IMG/VR virus record: IMGVR_UViG_3300036900_000205
Span: 1 to 43,879 of that record
Source: a virus
DNA length: 43,879 nucleotides
Reading direction: 5' to 3' (one strand)
The position numbers and the translations under genes were made by a program. Under the pieces are notes generated by a model. That model saw only the letters and a list, made by a program, of their open reading frames with translations. It made no database searches and was not told the DNA's origin. Of the stretch, positions 972 through 39,446 are shown one piece after another. Within the stretch, counting starts at the first letter, position 1; the number at the start of each line of letters is the position of its first letter.

Positions 972-1853
972 ATGAACGTATACGAATCAGTCACGAACCG
1001 GATTCTCGAACAACTGGACGCGGGAATCATCCCTTGGCGCAAGGAATGGAAAGCCACTGGTCACAGCGCGCTGCCATTCAATCACACCACTCAGAAACCC
1101 TATCGCGGTATCAATGTCTGGCTCTTGCTTGCCTCCGGCTTTTCAGATTCGCGCTGGCTCACCTATAAGCAAGCGCAATCTATCGGCGCGCAGGTGAGAC
1201 GCGGTGAAAAGGGTACACCTATCGTTTTCTGGTCCACGTTCGAGACTGAACGTGAAAACTCAAGAGGCGAAACCATAGAAGCGCGCATCCCGTTCGCACG
1301 TCAATACACGGTTTTCAATATTGAGCAATGCGATGGTATCCCGGCTGAATTGCCGTTCGATGCGCCTACCTTTGAGCCCATCTCAGCCGCACAAGCGCTG
1401 GCGGATGACTACTTGAGCCGCGAACACATCGAACTGCGTCACGGCGGGAACCGCGCGTTTTATGCGACTCGCCTTGATTACATTCAGCTGCCAGAGCGCA
1501 GCGCGTTCACTTCGCCCGAGGCATACTACTCCACTCTGTTTCATGAAATGGCTCATTCTACCGGGCATAAGATGCGCCTCGATCGCGGCTTTGAGGCGAG
1601 CGCAGTTTTCGGTTCCTCCGACTATTCCAAAGAGGAATTGATCGCCGAATTTGCCGCTGCCTATTGCTGCGCCGAAACCGGCATTTCCAACAGCCAGGTC
1701 GAGATAAATCACGCTGCCTATATTCAGGGCTGGATGCGCGCCTTGAAGAATGACAAGACGCTACTCGTCGCAGCTGCGCAGCGCGCGCAGCGCGCTGCCG
1801 ACCGCATCGGGAATCGTATGCCAGTGGCGCGCGAATTGGACGTGGCGGCATAA
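972..1853 (+). CDS. ArdC-like antirestriction protein (ssDNA-binding plus zincin domain)
   Basis: A 293-residue protein with the two-part layout of the plasmid antirestriction family ArdC. The N-terminal half (about 1-120, with NRILEQLDAG, RGINVW and KGTPIVFW) matches the ArdC single-stranded-DNA-binding domain. The C-terminal half has the zinc metallopeptidase signature HEMAHSTGH (191-199), with a downstream acidic helix (EELIAE) that can give the third ligand. ArdC proteins protect incoming single-stranded or newly entered DNA from restriction, and the domain pair is common on conjugative plasmids and some phages. RBS AAGGA precedes the ATG. It shares a hairpin leader with the upstream gene, which suggests early expression on entry. 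Confidence 0.88.
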   Translation: MNVYESVTNRILEQLDAGIIPWRKEWKATGHSALPFNHTTQKPYRGINVWLLLASGFSDSRWLTYKQAQSIGAQVRRGEKGTPIVFWSTFETERENSRGETIEARIPFARQYTVFNIEQCDGIPAELPFDAPTFEPISAAQALADDYLSREHIELRHGGNRAFYATRLDYIQLPERSAFTSPEAYYSTLFHEMAHSTGHKMRLDRGFEASAVFGSSDYSKEELIAEFAAAYCCAETGISNSQVEINHAAYIQGWMRALKNDKTLLVAAAQRAQRAADRIGNRMPVARELDVAA

Positions 1854-2833: not shown

Positions 2834-2842
2834 ATTTGTGGG

Positions 2843-2871
2843 GCATATGTGCCATGTATATAAACAATATG
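2843..2871. repeat. CATATG-type 11-bp phased array, site 2 (parA upstream)
   Basis: CATATG at 2844 and AATATG at 2866 are 22 bp apart, with a degenerate TGTATA at the middle 11-bp position (2855). It lies between the terminator and the parA start at 2916, the expected place for an autoregulatory operator or centromere of a ParA/RHH system. Confidence 0.5.
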
Positions 2872-2915
2872 GGCGACACATCTGGGGCCTAGTGCACTAT
2901 ATTTTATGCAGCCTT

Positions 2916-3596
2916 ATGATTTGCGCGATCGGAAATATAAAAGGCGGAGTCGGCAAAACGACGCTCGCTGTCAATCTCGTAGTGGGGCTGGCGAAGCGGG
3001 GCCAGGACCTTCTTTTGATCGATGCCGATGAACAGGCCACGGCGTTGGCATTCACTGAACTGCGCACGACGCGCCATCCTGATGTGCCTACCTATACCGC
3101 CGTGGCCCTCCATGGCGCATCCATCCGTACCCAGGCCAGGCAGCTGGCTGGCCGCTACGATCACATCATCATTGACGTCGGCGGCCGCGATTCCATCTCC
3201 CTGCGCGCTGCGCTCACAGTTGCCAACCTGGTGGTGATTCCCGCCGCGCCTCGATCGTTCGATCTCTGGGGCTGCGACCAGACCGCGGAACTGGTGCGCG
3301 AGGCGCGCGAGATCAATGAGCTGCGCGCCGTTGCTGTCCTCAATGGTGCAGATGCCGCCGGACGTGACAATGCGGACGCCCTGGAGGCCCTGCGGCTTCT
3401 CGATGGCATCGAAGTATCGCCCTGTAGCCTGGGGCGCCGTAAAGCGTATCCCAATGCCGCCGCCGAGGGCCTGAGCGTGTTGGAGTTCCTTGATCCGATC
3501 AACCGCGAGGGAGCCCTCAAAGCCCGCGATGAGTTCTCGCAGCTCCTCGCGGCTCTGTTTCCGGAGAAACTGAAAAATGATCGCAAAAAAGCCTAA
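2916..3596 (+). CDS. parA: ParA-family partition ATPase
   Basis: A 226-residue deviant-Walker ATPase that drives low-copy plasmid segregation. Residues 1-15 read MICAIGNIKGGVGKT, with the ParA/MinD signature lysine in KGGVGKT (9-15), followed by the LLIDADEQ switch region and an IIIDVGGRD motif. I choose ATG 2916 because it places the Walker A at the usual distance from the N-terminus. An in-frame ATG at 2838 would add 26 residues of unrelated sequence. The length matches small (type Ib) ParAs with no N-terminal DNA-binding domain, which pair with ribbon-helix-helix partners. The next gene is such a protein and overlaps this one by 20 bp, so the two form a partition operon, isolated upstream by two terminators. 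Confidence 0.93.
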   Translation: MICAIGNIKGGVGKTTLAVNLVVGLAKRGQDLLLIDADEQATALAFTELRTTRHPDVPTYTAVALHGASIRTQARQLAGRYDHIIIDVGGRDSISLRAALTVANLVVIPAAPRSFDLWGCDQTAELVREAREINELRAVAVLNGADAAGRDNADALEALRLLDGIEVSPCSLGRRKAYPNAAAEGLSVLEFLDPINREGALKARDEFSQLLAALFPEKLKNDRKKA

Positions 3597-3819: not shown

Positions 3820-4134
3820 ATGAAAAGTTATCTGATCGCTCCCGATAATAAGTCGATCACTTGCTTATTTTGCTTCAAAACGTCCTTCCATCCCGAAGAT
3901 GTGAAGAATCGCTATTGCGGCAATTGTCACTACTTCCACCCGGAGAAGTTTTATGATGCGCGCCTCGCCTTCCCAACCACCATTGAAGAGGGACTAGCGC
4001 GTCAACTTCTTGCTGATGAACCAGGCGAATTTGAATCGCCACTGGATGCCATCGAGCGCGGGAAAAAGGAACGCAAAAAACAACGCGCTAAAGAACGTAC
4101 CCAGTTATTGAAGCGTCGTCGTCAGGGCGAATAG
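3820..4134 (+). CDS. Small zinc-ribbon protein with basic tail
   Basis: A 104-residue protein with an N-terminal zinc ribbon: C-L-F-C, then HPEDVKNRYCGNCHYFH, a pattern recurrent in small phage and bacterial proteins. The C-terminus is strongly basic (GKKERKKQRAKERTQLLKRRRQ), which would suit nucleic-acid binding. It starts 3 nt after the RHH gene, so it belongs to the partition transcript. Its last 30 bp overlap the 3' end of the convergent rep gene, and no terminator separates the two. Function unknown. Confidence 0.75.
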   Translation: MKSYLIAPDNKSITCLFCFKTSFHPEDVKNRYCGNCHYFHPEKFYDARLAFPTTIEEGLARQLLADEPGEFESPLDAIERGKKERKKQRAKERTQLLKRRRQGE

Positions 4135-4899
4135 CGGTAGAGCGGGCCGGGCATTGCGGCGGAAGATGAAATTAAGCCCGGTTACCTTCCGCCCCTTATT
4201 GATCGCGCGCCATTCGATGAGCCAGCCGTCATTGCGGAGTTCCTTGCAAGCTGGCTCGATAACTTTTTTCCGTACCCATGCGAAATTCTTGCGTGTGGTT
4301 TCGGTCACATTCATCGAGGTATTAAAGTCCTCGATTGAGATTTGCGCCCAACCGTCGCCGTCTTCATTTGTGTAAGACGCTAAAAGCTCTAGCATTTTCA
4401 AGCTATAAATCGACCGCAGCGGCGCTGCCTCGCCCAGCTGATATTTAGTGAAGTACTTCGTCAATCCCATGAGATGCGGTACGATTTCGCGAAAAAATAC
4501 CACTTCTACCCAGCCCTGCTTTTGGTAATAAGTCGCGCGCCCAATCCATCGAATATCCGTTTTTTTTACATCTTTGCTTCGGCTCAAGCGCCGATGTTCG
4601 GGCCAATAAAAATACGATTTTCTGTCAAATAACTTTTGAGCTGCATCTTGCAGAGCTTCATATGCTGTGTGGACCTCGATCCCGAAAGCGCGAGCGTATT
4701 CCTCGGCTGAGATTCTCACAGTCGGTTCATCTATCGGCCTATCGCGGCGACTGTCTAGCCGGGAAATGGCATAGATGATCAGGCGTTTTTCCGCATAGCT
4801 TAGGTTCGATCCTGCGCGCGCCAGCGCATTGCTCATAACAATCCAGCGTTCCGGGGCCGGATGCTCGATCTGATTATGCGAGAACTGAGGGCTTTTCAT
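4105..4899 (-). CDS. Rep_3 (RepB-type) plasmid replication initiator
   Basis: A 264-residue initiator of the Rep_3 family, with the two winged-helix halves expected. The first half begins near IVMSNALARAGSNLSYAEKR, the usual Rep_3 opening, and runs through an ISAEEYARAFG region. The second contains LRSIYSLKMLELLASY and a C-terminal GRKVTGLNFIF strand. These proteins bind iterons, open the origin and load the host replisome. Three iterons lie directly upstream at 4975-5035. The ATG at 4899 has a good AAGGG site. The gene converges on the zinc-ribbon gene with a 30-bp overlap. With ParA it shows that the element can replicate as a plasmid. Monomers probably initiate while dimers repress. Confidence 0.9.
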   Translation of the reverse strand: MKSPQFSHNQIEHPAPERWIVMSNALARAGSNLSYAEKRLIIYAISRLDSRRDRPIDEPTVRISAEEYARAFGIEVHTAYEALQDAAQKLFDRKSYFYWPEHRRLSRSKDVKKTDIRWIGRATYYQKQGWVEVVFFREIVPHLMGLTKYFTKYQLGEAAPLRSIYSLKMLELLASYTNEDGDGWAQISIEDFNTSMNVTETTRKNFAWVRKKVIEPACKELRNDGWLIEWRAINKGRKVTGLNFIFRRNARPALPLFALTTTLQ

Positions 4900-34045: not shown

Positions 34046-34227
34046 AGCTGTACCCTCCGCGAAATCGTTATGACGCGATCCTGGGGAACGAAGCCGGCGC
34101 GCTGATCGATTGTTTTGATTACACGCATCTCACGGCGCCATTGCCGGTGCTCACGTATCGCGTTGAAAACAACGGGAATAACGCACATCAGAAAGAGAAA
34201 CACTGTGATAAAGAGAAACCACCTCAT
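34042..34227 (-). CDS. Small single-membrane-span protein
   Basis: A 61-residue protein from ATG 34227: MRWFLFITVFLFLMCVIPVV, then a basic tail (NAIREHRQWRREMRVIKTID). One N-terminal membrane helix, N-in or N-out unknown. Both junctions overlap (ATGA before, GTGA after). It could be a spanin/holin-type or membrane-anchoring protein. No family recognised. Confidence 0.65.
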   Translation of the reverse strand: MRWFLFITVFLFLMCVIPVVFNAIREHRQWRREMRVIKTIDQRAGFVPQDRVITISRRVQL

Positions 34228-34586
34228 GGTTGCACCTCGGTCGGGAAACCTTCGATTCCCTGCATCATTTCTTCCAGACTCGGCGGCGACTCCGGTTCCT
34301 GTTCCAGATCCTGCGTATGGTACGCATTTAACACTATTTTCTGAACATATTGGAAGAACAACCATGCAGACTTCGTGACCGCATGGCCTCCCAGGATCTC
34401 CTCGGGGTTTCCTACGCTGGTGTTAAAGTGGGCGGTTTCGAGTTCGATACATGCACGCTCCATGACATTCAGCAGTGATTCATAACGCGGATCCGTATAC
34501 AGCTGCGCGAGGCTCGCCTTCTCTTCAGGCGATAGCTCTACCTCAGTGACTTTGAGGGTTCGGGTTTTGCGCAGCCTGATTTCCAT
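34224..34586 (-). CDS. Conserved-looking phage protein, unknown
   Basis: A 120-residue protein (MEIRLRKTRTLKVTEVELSP). N-terminal strands are followed by helical LYTDPRYESLLNVMERACIE and a Pro/Glu-rich end. It lies between the Acb2-like gene and the membrane protein. The reading has no metal or membrane motif. It is part of the virion operon, but its function is not recognised. Confidence 0.65.
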   Translation of the reverse strand: MEIRLRKTRTLKVTEVELSPEEKASLAQLYTDPRYESLLNVMERACIELETAHFNTSVGNPEEILGGHAVTKSAWLFFQYVQKIVLNAYHTQDLEQEPESPPSLEEMMQGIEGFPTEVQP

Positions 34587-34628: not shown

Positions 34629-34865
34629 TCATAATTTGCCGTGCAGTGCAATCGCAGAATTCGCGTAAGACAACGATTCTCGTACGGCCGACAGGGCCAG
34701 CTGCTGATCCATGCAAACCGGGGTCAGGGCCAGGATGGCATTTGCAAACTGATAAGCTGCGCGGCGCATCTCGGCATATTGCGTGTCTTTGGTGATGGGA
34801 TTGTGGTGATCCCTAAATAGTTCATGCAGGTTGTCACGGTGGATCAGGCCTGTGACGGGGCCCAT
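34629..34865 (-). CDS. Acb2/Tad1-like small helical-hairpin protein (candidate anti-CBASS sponge)
   Basis: A 78-residue protein from ATG 34865, overlapping the portal's end by 22 bp. It shows a pattern I associate with the Acb2/Tad1 family: an aromatic followed by H-x-N-P-I, Q-Y-x-E-M-R-R-A-A-Y-Q-F-A, T-P, then ALSAVRESLSYANSAIALH. The family forms a compact two-helix hexamer that sequesters cyclic oligonucleotide signals, shutting off CBASS defence in T4 (Vs.4) and Pseudomonas phage. What I see is the spacing of F/H-P, Y-x-x-x-R, and A-N-x-A-I-A. The functional claim is an inference. No strong ribosome site, so translation is probably coupled to portal. Confidence 0.6.
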   Translation of the reverse strand: MGPVTGLIHRDNLHELFRDHHNPITKDTQYAEMRRAAYQFANAILALTPVCMDQQLALSAVRESLSYANSAIALHGKL

Positions 34866-36994
34866 AGACTCTGATCGATCGCCTGCCGCTCCCACTTTCG
34901 TTCGTCCCATGTCGCTGCTTCGTCGCTGGCTTTTGCCAACAGGTCCTGCGCCAGCCTTTGCTCGCCCTGCTGATCGATTTCCTGCGCCTTTGCCTGGTGC
35001 CTGGCGCCGATCGCCGCTATCTGTCCCTGCACCTTTTGGACGCCGGGATTGTTTTGCTGATACTTCTGCGCTTCCTGGGCCGTCATCGGCCTTATTAACT
35101 CTCTTGCGTTTTTCCATTCGCTCACTTCCATGAACATTTCTAGCAGCTGCCGTACGTCGACCATCCAACCCATTGCATTCAACTGCTGGATGAGCGGCGC
35201 ATTCTCAAAAATCTGCACCATGAGGGGCAAGGCCTGCGCCATGGCTTTTTTGGCCGCCAGGTGCGCGCCGGCCAGGCATTCGAAGCGGTCCTCACTATCG
35301 TAAAAATTCTTCGCGTCGAGTTCGAAGGCCGCGCCCAGCTCATCGGAAAGAATGGTCCGAATCTGTTTGGGGCTCATGCGCGATTTCACATAGAACTCGA
35401 GCAGTTCGATAGTGGGCAGCAAAATGCCTTTTACGAAGTGGCCCACAGGCCCCTGAATCTTACCCGCGTTCGCCGCGATGATGCCTCCCGCTCCGGTAGC
35501 CGTGCGCGCCGCGCTCGATCCCCCGCGGGGCGGTAGACTGCCCTGGGTAAAAGCCTCGTCCGCGCCGGTGGTCGATTGCGCCTGCTGCGCGGCATTCTGC
35601 AGCGCGGTGAAAACTTCAGGGGGAACCTTGGGAAGCTCGATGATTCCAAAAACATCGCGTACGCTCTGGCCTGCTTTGGTGTCTACGTCGATGATGCCGC
35701 CCAGCCGCTGCCTGATTTGCTGGGTAGGTGCGTTGGCGCCGCGATCGCGCACAAACGTTTGGTTGACGGCGAAAGAGAGAATATCCAGCATCGCATCGGT
35801 GAGGCCTTTTTCGACGCGCTGATCTGAGCCCGCCAACCGTCCCACTCCGAGACCAAAGCCGGCATTGGGGATATTCCAGAAATTAGCGGCCATGAAGCCG
35901 ATGAAGGGCTGCTCGTGTTTTTCCTTGCGAATCAATACGCCTCGATCGCCACCCTCGGGAACGAGGACTGCATGGATGTAGCAGTCGTCGTGCCGTTCAA
36001 ACATTTGGATAGGGCGCTCGATCGGAGAAACGCTGGCCGGTTCCTCAGGATTCTGCGAATGATGGATCGCCCAATTCTGGCCGCCTAAATTCTGCTGCAC
36101 CTGGCTGGGCGCGCCGGCGTTGCCCTCGTGAGAAAAGAAATATGCCTTCAGGTCCTCTTCAGGGGGTATGTCATAGCCGCCTACCTGATTGCCCTCTTCG
36201 TCCACGATGATGGGCTGGTTGCGCAGCTTCTCGAGGTCCATCCAGGTGGGATAGGTGACGTGAATAACGTATTTCGCACCGGTATGCAGCGCATTGGCCG
36301 TATTCCAGGTGGGGTCGACCAGAACGCTGCCCAGGTCGCACATCTCGAAGGTGAGGCCTTCCTCGACCACTTCGGTGGGGCGCACTACCAGCTCTTCGCT
36401 CTCTTTGGTGTGCATCACCAGCTCGCCGCCCAGAGGGAGAGCCATCTTGATCGGCGCAGCTTTAGGCGAACGCAGCTTGCGGATTTTGGTATCGCGGCGC
36501 CAGCCCACTTTCACGATCACAGTGCCAAAGGTGGTCATGCTCTCGAGAGCGCGCTCGCTTACGTCCTCGAATTTGCACTCATCGAGCAGGGCACCATAGA
36601 GCGCGGTTTTTGCGCGTGCCGTGCTTTGGCTGGTCGCGGGCCTCGGCCTCACCAGAAAGGGCGGCATCTCGTAAAAAATGCCCGATTTCATCGCCGGTAC
36701 CAGGCTGTTCACGTGCTTGGCAACGGTGAAGCGGCTAATGTTGGCGCGCGCCACCGTCGATCCCTCAAAGGATGAATTGGTGCGCGGCGACTGATAGAGC
36801 ACATCGGCTTCGCGCCAGTGAAGGTTCCACTGCTTTTGTTCAAGAAAAGTACGGGCGCGCTCTGCATCCTGAATAGTGAGCTGCACGGCGCCGTCATCGG
36901 TATACCGCGGATCGAGTAGCGGGCCGCCCTCGATAATCACGTCGCTTGGTTCAAGGATCTGACTACCGTTCACCATGCCTGGAAGCGTGGCCAT
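34844..36994 (-). CDS. Portal protein
   Basis: A 716-residue protein. It fits the large podoviral portal: a long beta/alpha N-terminal half (ARTFLEQKQWNLHWREADVL, SFEGSTVARANISRFTVAKH), ALESMTTFGTVIVKVGW, a conserved RKEKHEQPFIGFMAANFWNI stem approach, and KGLTDAMLDILSFAVN in the channel helix region. The C-terminus is helical (IAAIGARHQAKAQEIDQQGE). The position two genes after the TerL/small-protein block and upstream of scaffold and capsid agrees. The gene starts at 36994, 2 nt after the preceding stop. Confidence 0.82.
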   Translation of the reverse strand: MATLPGMVNGSQILEPSDVIIEGGPLLDPRYTDDGAVQLTIQDAERARTFLEQKQWNLHWREADVLYQSPRTNSSFEGSTVARANISRFTVAKHVNSLVPAMKSGIFYEMPPFLVRPRPATSQSTARAKTALYGALLDECKFEDVSERALESMTTFGTVIVKVGWRRDTKIRKLRSPKAAPIKMALPLGGELVMHTKESEELVVRPTEVVEEGLTFEMCDLGSVLVDPTWNTANALHTGAKYVIHVTYPTWMDLEKLRNQPIIVDEEGNQVGGYDIPPEEDLKAYFFSHEGNAGAPSQVQQNLGGQNWAIHHSQNPEEPASVSPIERPIQMFERHDDCYIHAVLVPEGGDRGVLIRKEKHEQPFIGFMAANFWNIPNAGFGLGVGRLAGSDQRVEKGLTDAMLDILSFAVNQTFVRDRGANAPTQQIRQRLGGIIDVDTKAGQSVRDVFGIIELPKVPPEVFTALQNAAQQAQSTTGADEAFTQGSLPPRGGSSAARTATGAGGIIAANAGKIQGPVGHFVKGILLPTIELLEFYVKSRMSPKQIRTILSDELGAAFELDAKNFYDSEDRFECLAGAHLAAKKAMAQALPLMVQIFENAPLIQQLNAMGWMVDVRQLLEMFMEVSEWKNARELIRPMTAQEAQKYQQNNPGVQKVQGQIAAIGARHQAKAQEIDQQGEQRLAQDLLAKASDEAATWDERKWERQAIDQSLWAPSQA

Positions 36995-37784: not shown

Positions 37785-39446
37785 TCATCCTGTTAGTCCG
37801 GGCATCCAGTCAGAAAGCCCGAAACCGGGTTCACCTGGTTGCCATTCTTCCTCGGCTTCGGGGAATGGATCTGGCGTGGCGTATTCGGCTTTCCCGTAGA
37901 CGCGGTTGTATGCATCCTGCTCGATGTAGTTCTGGAAGGCCTCTTCATCCTGCATCTCAAAGCCTTCGGCCGCGATCGACGCCGGCAGGTGTGCCGCGAC
38001 CCGGCTCACCGCGCTGGCGACTTCGAACTCCTCCACCATGCCAAAGTGATAGAGCTGTCGGAATACTTCCTGCACATTGCCGATGTGGGCGCTGAAGAGC
38101 AGTCTGCCGCCGAGCAGGTGGGGCTCGGCGCTTTTGATGGCCAGGTTGCGGGCGGTGTCGTCCTGCAGAAAATCTCCCCAGGTGATTTCAACTCGCCAAT
38201 CCTGTTCGAGCGCTTCGTTGCGGATGTGCTGCTGCATGGTGCGGGCGCCCGGAGTGTCCTCGATTTCAACGCGATGGGATTCCCACTTTTTGGCCACGCT
38301 CACCACACGTCGCGCCAGGGCGCTGGGCGTGAGCTGCGCCCGTACCACTTCAACGATGGTCATACGGCCATCACGCTCGATGCCCACGGCGCAGGCCGCG
38401 TTCTTGCACTCGGCGTATTCGAAGCGCCAGGCGATATGCACGTTCTCATCATGCTGGGCAGCATCCTCGCTCACCTTGGCCGCTTCCAGTCTCTCTATTG
38501 GGAATGTGGGTACAAAGTTGCCTTCGGCCACGTTCATGTACTGCGTCCAGTAGGTTTCTGGGTCCAGGGCCTTCTCTTCTCTGAGGAATTGCCATGAAAT
38601 CTGCTCAGGAAACTGCAAAATGACATCGTCTTCAGTCAATTCGTCATCGTCGAGCTTTAAAGCGTGTGGGCGCCGGATATAAGCCGGTTTCCAGAGGAGA
38701 ATTGTCTCCTCGCCGGCCTTGGTAATCATGTCACCGTACAGGTCCATAGGACCGTAGCGCGTTCCGGTGATATCCACGTAGCCGCCTTCGCCCAGCATTT
38801 TCAGATTGAGGTAAAAATTCTTCTTCACCTTACGCAATCCGAATGAGGTTTGGCTGTTGCGGTTGTCCTGCACGTCTTCGCTCTTGATCCAGTCCGGATG
38901 CCAGCCTGAGAGCGATTGCTCGATCGAGACGCCCTTTACTGTGGGGTCGCGGCGGAACTTCGTTCGTGCCGGCGTGGTGAATTCGCCGGCCTTGTTCATC
39001 TTGTGGAGTACGTGTTCGGGAAAGCAAAGATGGAGGGCGCCCCGCGGAGCGCCCTCGGGACAATAGAAGTGGCTGGCCACTTCGGCCACAAATGCATCAG
39101 CCAGGGGAGAGTCGGGCGAATTAGAAGCCGTCATCACCATGACGGCCACATCCGGAAAGCCACATACGAGCTGTACGGTATCGGCAATATTGAAGGTTGT
39201 TTTGTAGGTTTTGCGCGGCAACAGAACGATGCGCCGGCGCTTCCTGCTTTGCTGAAAAATAGGTTTGGTCGGATCTTTCTTAATGAAGACGTCGGCCACC
39301 TGGCGGTGGCTCTCTTCAGTCACCTTGTCGTAGCCCAGCACATATTTGGTGAGCCAGAAAAGATCGGTCTGCATGCGCCAGCGTAGAAACTGGCGATACG
39401 ATTCGTCTTCGCTGATTCGAGCAATGTCGATTTCGTTTTCGGTCAT
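37785..39446 (-). CDS. terL: Terminase large subunit
   Basis: A 553-residue DNA-packaging motor. The N-terminal ATPase has a non-classical Walker A, LLPRKTYKTT (residues 75-84), as in other terminases with PRxxxKTT, a Walker B-like WIKSED (186-191), and coupling residues TASNSP. The C-terminal half reads like the RNase H-fold nuclease: HIAWRFEYAE, ERDGRMTIVEVVR, and later HLLGGRLLFSAHIG. Acidic residues sit at the expected nuclease positions, though the first is a Glu. The length fits podoviral TerL. It follows the His-rich small protein by ATGA. No small terminase is recognised with certainty. Confidence 0.88.
   Translation of the reverse strand: MTENEIDIARISEDESYRQFLRWRMQTDLFWLTKYVLGYDKVTEESHRQVADVFIKKDPTKPIFQQSRKRRRIVLLPRKTYKTTFNIADTVQLVCGFPDVAVMVMTASNSPDSPLADAFVAEVASHFYCPEGAPRGALHLCFPEHVLHKMNKAGEFTTPARTKFRRDPTVKGVSIEQSLSGWHPDWIKSEDVQDNRNSQTSFGLRKVKKNFYLNLKMLGEGGYVDITGTRYGPMDLYGDMITKAGEETILLWKPAYIRRPHALKLDDDELTEDDVILQFPEQISWQFLREEKALDPETYWTQYMNVAEGNFVPTFPIERLEAAKVSEDAAQHDENVHIAWRFEYAECKNAACAVGIERDGRMTIVEVVRAQLTPSALARRVVSVAKKWESHRVEIEDTPGARTMQQHIRNEALEQDWRVEITWGDFLQDDTARNLAIKSAEPHLLGGRLLFSAHIGNVQEVFRQLYHFGMVEEFEVASAVSRVAAHLPASIAAEGFEMQDEEAFQNYIEQDAYNRVYGKAEYATPDPFPEAEEEWQPGEPGFGLSDWMPGLTG

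Follow-up and report, generated by a model that had tools for sequence, protein, structure and literature searches.

The question raised by this locus is whether a small open reading frame (ORF), tucked behind the portal gene of an environmental virus, encodes an Acb2/Tad1-like protein that could sequester cyclic nucleotides and thereby block CBASS. The whole record, IMG/VR IMGVR_UViG_3300036900_000205, was analysed over its 43,879 nucleotides and is here termed the window. By translation of the window, the ORF was found to be encoded on the minus strand (34629..34865), a strand that the original prediction had not given, with 78 codons from an ATG at 34865 to a TGA at 34629; the plus strand across this interval is interrupted by stops. 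All of the motifs that had been quoted for the product were recovered, namely F17-x2-H-H-N-P, Q29-Y-x-E-M-R-R-A-A, T48-P and S66-Y-A-N-S-A-I-A. From its ATG onwards, the ORF overlaps the final 22 nt of the portal ORF (34844..36994, minus strand, 716 aa; Pfam SU10_portal, E=9.7e-14). An alternative GTG start at 34895, 30 nt upstream of the ATG, would extend the product to 88 aa (extension at 34866..34895, minus strand), and the two nearest relatives, L001 and L002, were found to have a corresponding N-terminal stretch. The hairpin ORF occupies a variable slot between the portal gene and a downstream gene of 120 aa (34224..34586, minus strand) that has no Pfam match and is kept after the portal in most relatives. 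Upstream of the portal, a 553-aa ORF (37785..39446, minus strand), also with no Pfam match, is presumed to encode the large terminase subunit based on its position and a P-loop-like motif. Codon comparison of the hairpin ORF to its two closest relatives gave a dN of 0.42-0.45 and a dS of 1.7-2.4 (near saturation); with dN well below dS, the protein is under purifying selection.

Family membership was examined by sequence profile. The only Pfam match of the hairpin protein was to PF24729 (Acb2_Tad1_hairpin) by hmmscan (E=3.8e-4), at 21 bits, which falls short of the curated cut-off of 27 bits; a search of the window's own record with PF24729 gave zero matches, in line with a sub-threshold member. 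The protein also matched phrog_1454. Direct searches for relatives were empty, whether by tblastn of the 78-aa protein against 50,697 phage records, by a scan of IMG/VR for close relatives or by phmmer against the PDB, and other IMG/VR contigs contained no identical stretch. Relatives were therefore sought through the neighbouring portal gene by use of 39 IMG/VR loci that encode a related portal protein. By this approach, the hairpin proteins of L031, L034 and L002 were found to score 50.2, 39.4 and 36.2 bits to PF24729, all above the cut-off. The L002 gene is located directly after the portal gene, like the window copy, and its product shares 55% identity with the window protein, which it bridges to a common FTYHPP...ANAAIA type. 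Hairpins of this FTYHPP type, from environmental and actinobacterial phages (phrog_1454), form the immediate subfamily of the window protein; they share with it the F-x-x-H, Y-x-x-x-R, P and A-N-x-A-I-A pattern and often adjoin portal or terminase genes. In the window protein, the Tyr and Pro of FxYHxP, both near-invariant, and the Arg of A-I/L-R have given way to other residues.

An independent profile was next built from 30 relatives, with the window ORF and its two closest relatives left out. The window protein scored 57.2 bits to this profile; of about 1,900 shuffles that were scored, the best reached 13.3 bits, and the best unrelated ORF of the window reached 12.9 bits. Experimentally established Acb2 proteins match PF24729 at 71.4 bits (Vs.4 of T4, PDB 7uq2) and 66.5 bits (Pseudomonas phage p26, PDB 8h2j/8ixz). 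Direct profile comparison to T4 Acb2 or p26 was weak; at the level of sequence, the bridge from the window protein to these two is the Pfam family that they have in common. The top PDB sequence match of the family profiles, 9ptq ('Acb2 homolog 43', 76 aa, deposited with six chains), is of the same length class as the window protein and aligned over 58 positions without gaps, although the similarity was weak (E=0.011 and 0.037) and the second helix of 9ptq is of a SREKS...TKL type. Since the relatives exceed the Pfam cut-off and the window protein reaches 57.2 bits to an independent profile, it almost certainly belongs to the Acb2/Tad1 hairpin superfamily (PF24729), of which it is a new, divergent member within an already known family.

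An AlphaFold model of the monomer, predicted from a 33-row alignment (pLDDT 85, pTM 0.73), placed helices at residues 10-16, 28-47 and 52-74. The Acb2 protomer consists of a short helix and two long antiparallel helices (PMC10419184), and this is the layout displayed by the predicted model, with a loop between the long helices that is about 20 residues shorter than in Acb2. When the model was compared to viral models by Foldseek, the best matches were mostly named 'Acb2/Tad1 hairpin domain-containing protein', the first with a TM of 0.70/0.77 and a probability of 1.00, and no match had E < 0.05. Foldseek against the PDB returned nothing significant, a result that says little either way, as the query is a 78-residue helical hairpin. 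Thus, the link to the Acb2 family that had been drawn from sequence patterns was borne out by sequence profiles, by relatives that share PF24729 above its cut-off with verified Acb2 proteins, and by a predicted protomer of Acb2 type that has the two-helix fold.

Based on this family placement, the hairpin protein is most likely a sponge for a cyclic oligonucleotide that serves the host as an alarm signal, in CBASS or a system related to it. Such a sponge would bind the alarm nucleotide stoichiometrically, without cleavage, and effector activation would thereby be held back during virion production. We estimate the probability of this explanation as a whole at about 0.52. From what is known of the family we infer a hexamer, the binding of a ligand and its identity, an anti-CBASS effect and late timing; sponge activity of the window protein is plausible, and the odds that it sequesters a nucleotide are about even, since the known stacking tyrosine is replaced by aspartate.

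This replacement was identified by comparison to T4 Acb2, which contacts cGAMP by stacking of Y8 and F82 and by polar contacts of H11, K23 and R79, and whose hexamer is held by L29, A66, A73 and A77 (PMC10097602). In that protein, Y8A reduces cGAMP binding more than 5-fold and F82A more than 25-fold (PMC10097602). In a joint alignment, the contact positions of the window protein were found to be Asp19 (Y8), Asn22 (H11), Arg34 (K23), Ser70 (R79) and Ala73 (F82), such that only the basic residue at K23 is kept; Arg at this position is invariant throughout the subfamily. The interface positions are Phe40 (L29), Ala57 (A66), Ser64 (A73) and Ala68 (A77), with small residues shared with Acb2 at A66 and A77. 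As the cGAMP-contact residues are mostly changed, the window protein is filed in the superfamily rather than as a proven Acb2. Some of these differences are common to the subfamily and, thus, do not refute function. Nearly all of the subfamily lacks R79 and F82, and in p26 the F82 position is occupied by Ala and the H11 position by Leu; T4 is therefore a poor template for R79 and F82, and only the change at Y8 is specific. Among 12 distinct hairpins found via the portal gene, which were not selected for motif, the Y8 position is occupied by Tyr in 10, by Phe in one and by Glu in one; thus, the Asp of the window protein is a real departure.

It is possible, with a probability clearly below that of the sponge, that the window protein retains the family and fold while its nucleotide pocket has been lost or re-specified. 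This copy would then be in decay or have a different ligand; it could, for instance, bind cyclic trinucleotides alone, at the trimer interface, or a nucleotide from outside CBASS. The Asp of the window protein, together with the Glu of L001 and the Phe of L003 at a position where Tyr predominates, is consistent with such a change, as are the Ser that replaces a subfamily Arg at the T68 position, the grouping of the window protein with L001 on fairly long branches, and the erosion of the C-terminal ANxxIA in L001, L003 and L007. By contrast, dN/dS is well below 1, the window protein keeps 12 of the 14 columns whose conservation across the family is 90% or higher, and Tyr is not universal: 9ptq, a hexameric entry, has Thr at this position, so a hairpin that lacks the Tyr may still be functional. 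The hairpin copies of L001:2657-2914, L003:3568-3885 and L007:3404-3754, from the same phage group, lack portions of the FTYH motif, of the ANxxIA motif or of both, which suggests relaxed or changed constraint in the lineage.

The sponge explanation draws further weight from the distribution of the gene. In the 39 related-portal loci, a hairpin ORF was detected directly after the portal gene in L001, L002, L031 and L034, as in the window, and between the terminase and portal genes in eight others (L007, L008, L011, L012, L021, L022, L036 and L038); the L007 copy is degenerate, and L003 has a degenerate copy further down. When only well-covered loci were considered (at least 1.5 kb before and at least 1 kb after the portal gene; n=26), the hairpin was present in 10. 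A gene that is optional and found on either side of the portal gene is accessory rather than structural, and such a distribution, typical of counter-defence genes, counts for a sponge. The original prediction had described the ORF as coupled to a structural gene. The ORF is located in a block of structural genes (compared to the vs region for T4 Acb2), and no promoter-like site was found on the hairpin strand between 34000 and 37500, which is compatible, if weakly so, with co-transcription. However, relatives have the hairpin gene before the portal, after it or not at all, so the portal itself is not its fixed partner; that the product may be virion-timed, as had been proposed, is something we infer.

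Similar arrangements were observed in unrelated phages. In the Gordonia phages Chidiebere and FlyingTortilla the hairpin gene shares a few bases with the portal gene, and in Arthrobacter phage Jasmine and Mycobacterium phage MalagasyRose it is located ahead of the terminase genes; all four are annotated 'hypothetical protein'. This placement directly behind the portal gene, here and in the Gordonia phages, or near the terminase genes, together with a domain resembling a capsid decoration protein that is nearby in several relatives and once fused to the hairpin, would fit a small head-assembly or packaging protein with no signalling role, whose match to PF24729 reflects fold only or a family in which not all members are sponges. 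We consider such a role unlikely, as the hairpin is found in a minority of the well-covered loci and on either side of the portal gene, many family members adjoin replication or other non-structural genes, and Pfam places the hairpin with verified sponges.

Several other variants were noted within the family. In Chidiebere (L098, 4004-6295) and FlyingTortilla (L120, 2998-5301), genes annotated as RNA ligase and VIP2-like ADP-ribosyltransferase are located directly 3' of the hairpin gene, with the hairpin, RNA ligase and VIP2-like genes all overlapping with the portal gene; these are possibly a cassette for host takeover or counter-defence. The hairpins of L092:1601-1999, L093:3498-3905 and L095:3483-3857 are an unusual family variant, with an insertion of about 40-60 residues in the region of the first long helix after FTYH...YxxIR. 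A Methanoregulaceae archaeon MAG also contains a contig with an FTYH-type hairpin gene (L096:640-888); the range of the family may extend to viruses of archaea, unless this is a binning error.

The domain near the hairpin gene of several relatives is a beta domain of about 90 aa with the pattern P-x-Y-x-SHK ... GGYxVxYxDGYxSxSP ... FExGYT. Its gene adjoins or is near the hairpin gene in L102, L012, L021, L038, L008, L114 and L116, in L008 it occupies the slot behind the portal gene by itself, and in L050:971-1498 it is fused to the hairpin in one ORF of 176 aa. Both sequence profile (E=0.0027) and fold search (E=0.0026, probability 1.00) related it to Dec, which decorates the capsid of phage L, and it is thus a Dec-like OB-fold domain, capsid-decoration-like in type. 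The L050 fusion was considered as a Tad1 and dropped, as profile and fold search point to Dec and no Tad1 appeared. In well-covered portal loci with near-duplicates removed, the Dec-like domain was present in 4 of 9 loci with a hairpin and 0 of 13 without (p=0.017, a post hoc value that ignores relatedness); it is absent from the window. It would be a long shot that hairpin sponge and Dec-like domain form a two-part portal-side module, in which the sponge could travel with the virion and be active as soon as infection begins, and of which the window copy has a re-specified pocket, with Asp for the stacking Tyr.

A Tad1-type anti-Thoeris sponge that binds gcADPR is highly improbable: one Pfam model spans both hairpins, that of Tad1 being C-terminal and in the family by its name, and Tad1 binds gcADPR as well as cyclic nucleotides (PMC12043709), but Tad1 has an N-terminal beta-sheet followed by two helices (PMC12043709) that is absent from the 78-aa, all-helical AlphaFold model of the window protein, and a companion gene for a beta domain was not detected in the window, so the layout is that of Acb2 and not of Tad1.

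The element that carries the hairpin gene had been described as a phage-plasmid. The window encodes a Rep3 replication initiator (4105-4899, minus strand) and a ParA-type ATPase (2838-3596, plus strand), which support this description and make it probable; when its portal region was compared to 72,556 plasmids, no similarity at the DNA level was detected. The nearest named phage relative infects Tunturiibacter, and the host may therefore be one of the Acidobacteriota, although the portal identity to this relative is only 35%. An ArdC-type anti-restriction protein (ArdcN plus zincin-like metallopeptidase) is encoded at 972-1853 (plus strand), in line with a further counter-defence gene alongside the hairpin.

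Taken together, these results mean that assignment to the hairpin family has now been tested in phages with no close cultured representative, and that Acb2-type hairpins are optional cargo near portal or terminase genes in several unrelated phage groups. As a naturally occurring variant that lacks the canonical stacking tyrosine, the window protein bears on how far the pocket of a nucleotide sponge may tolerate change.
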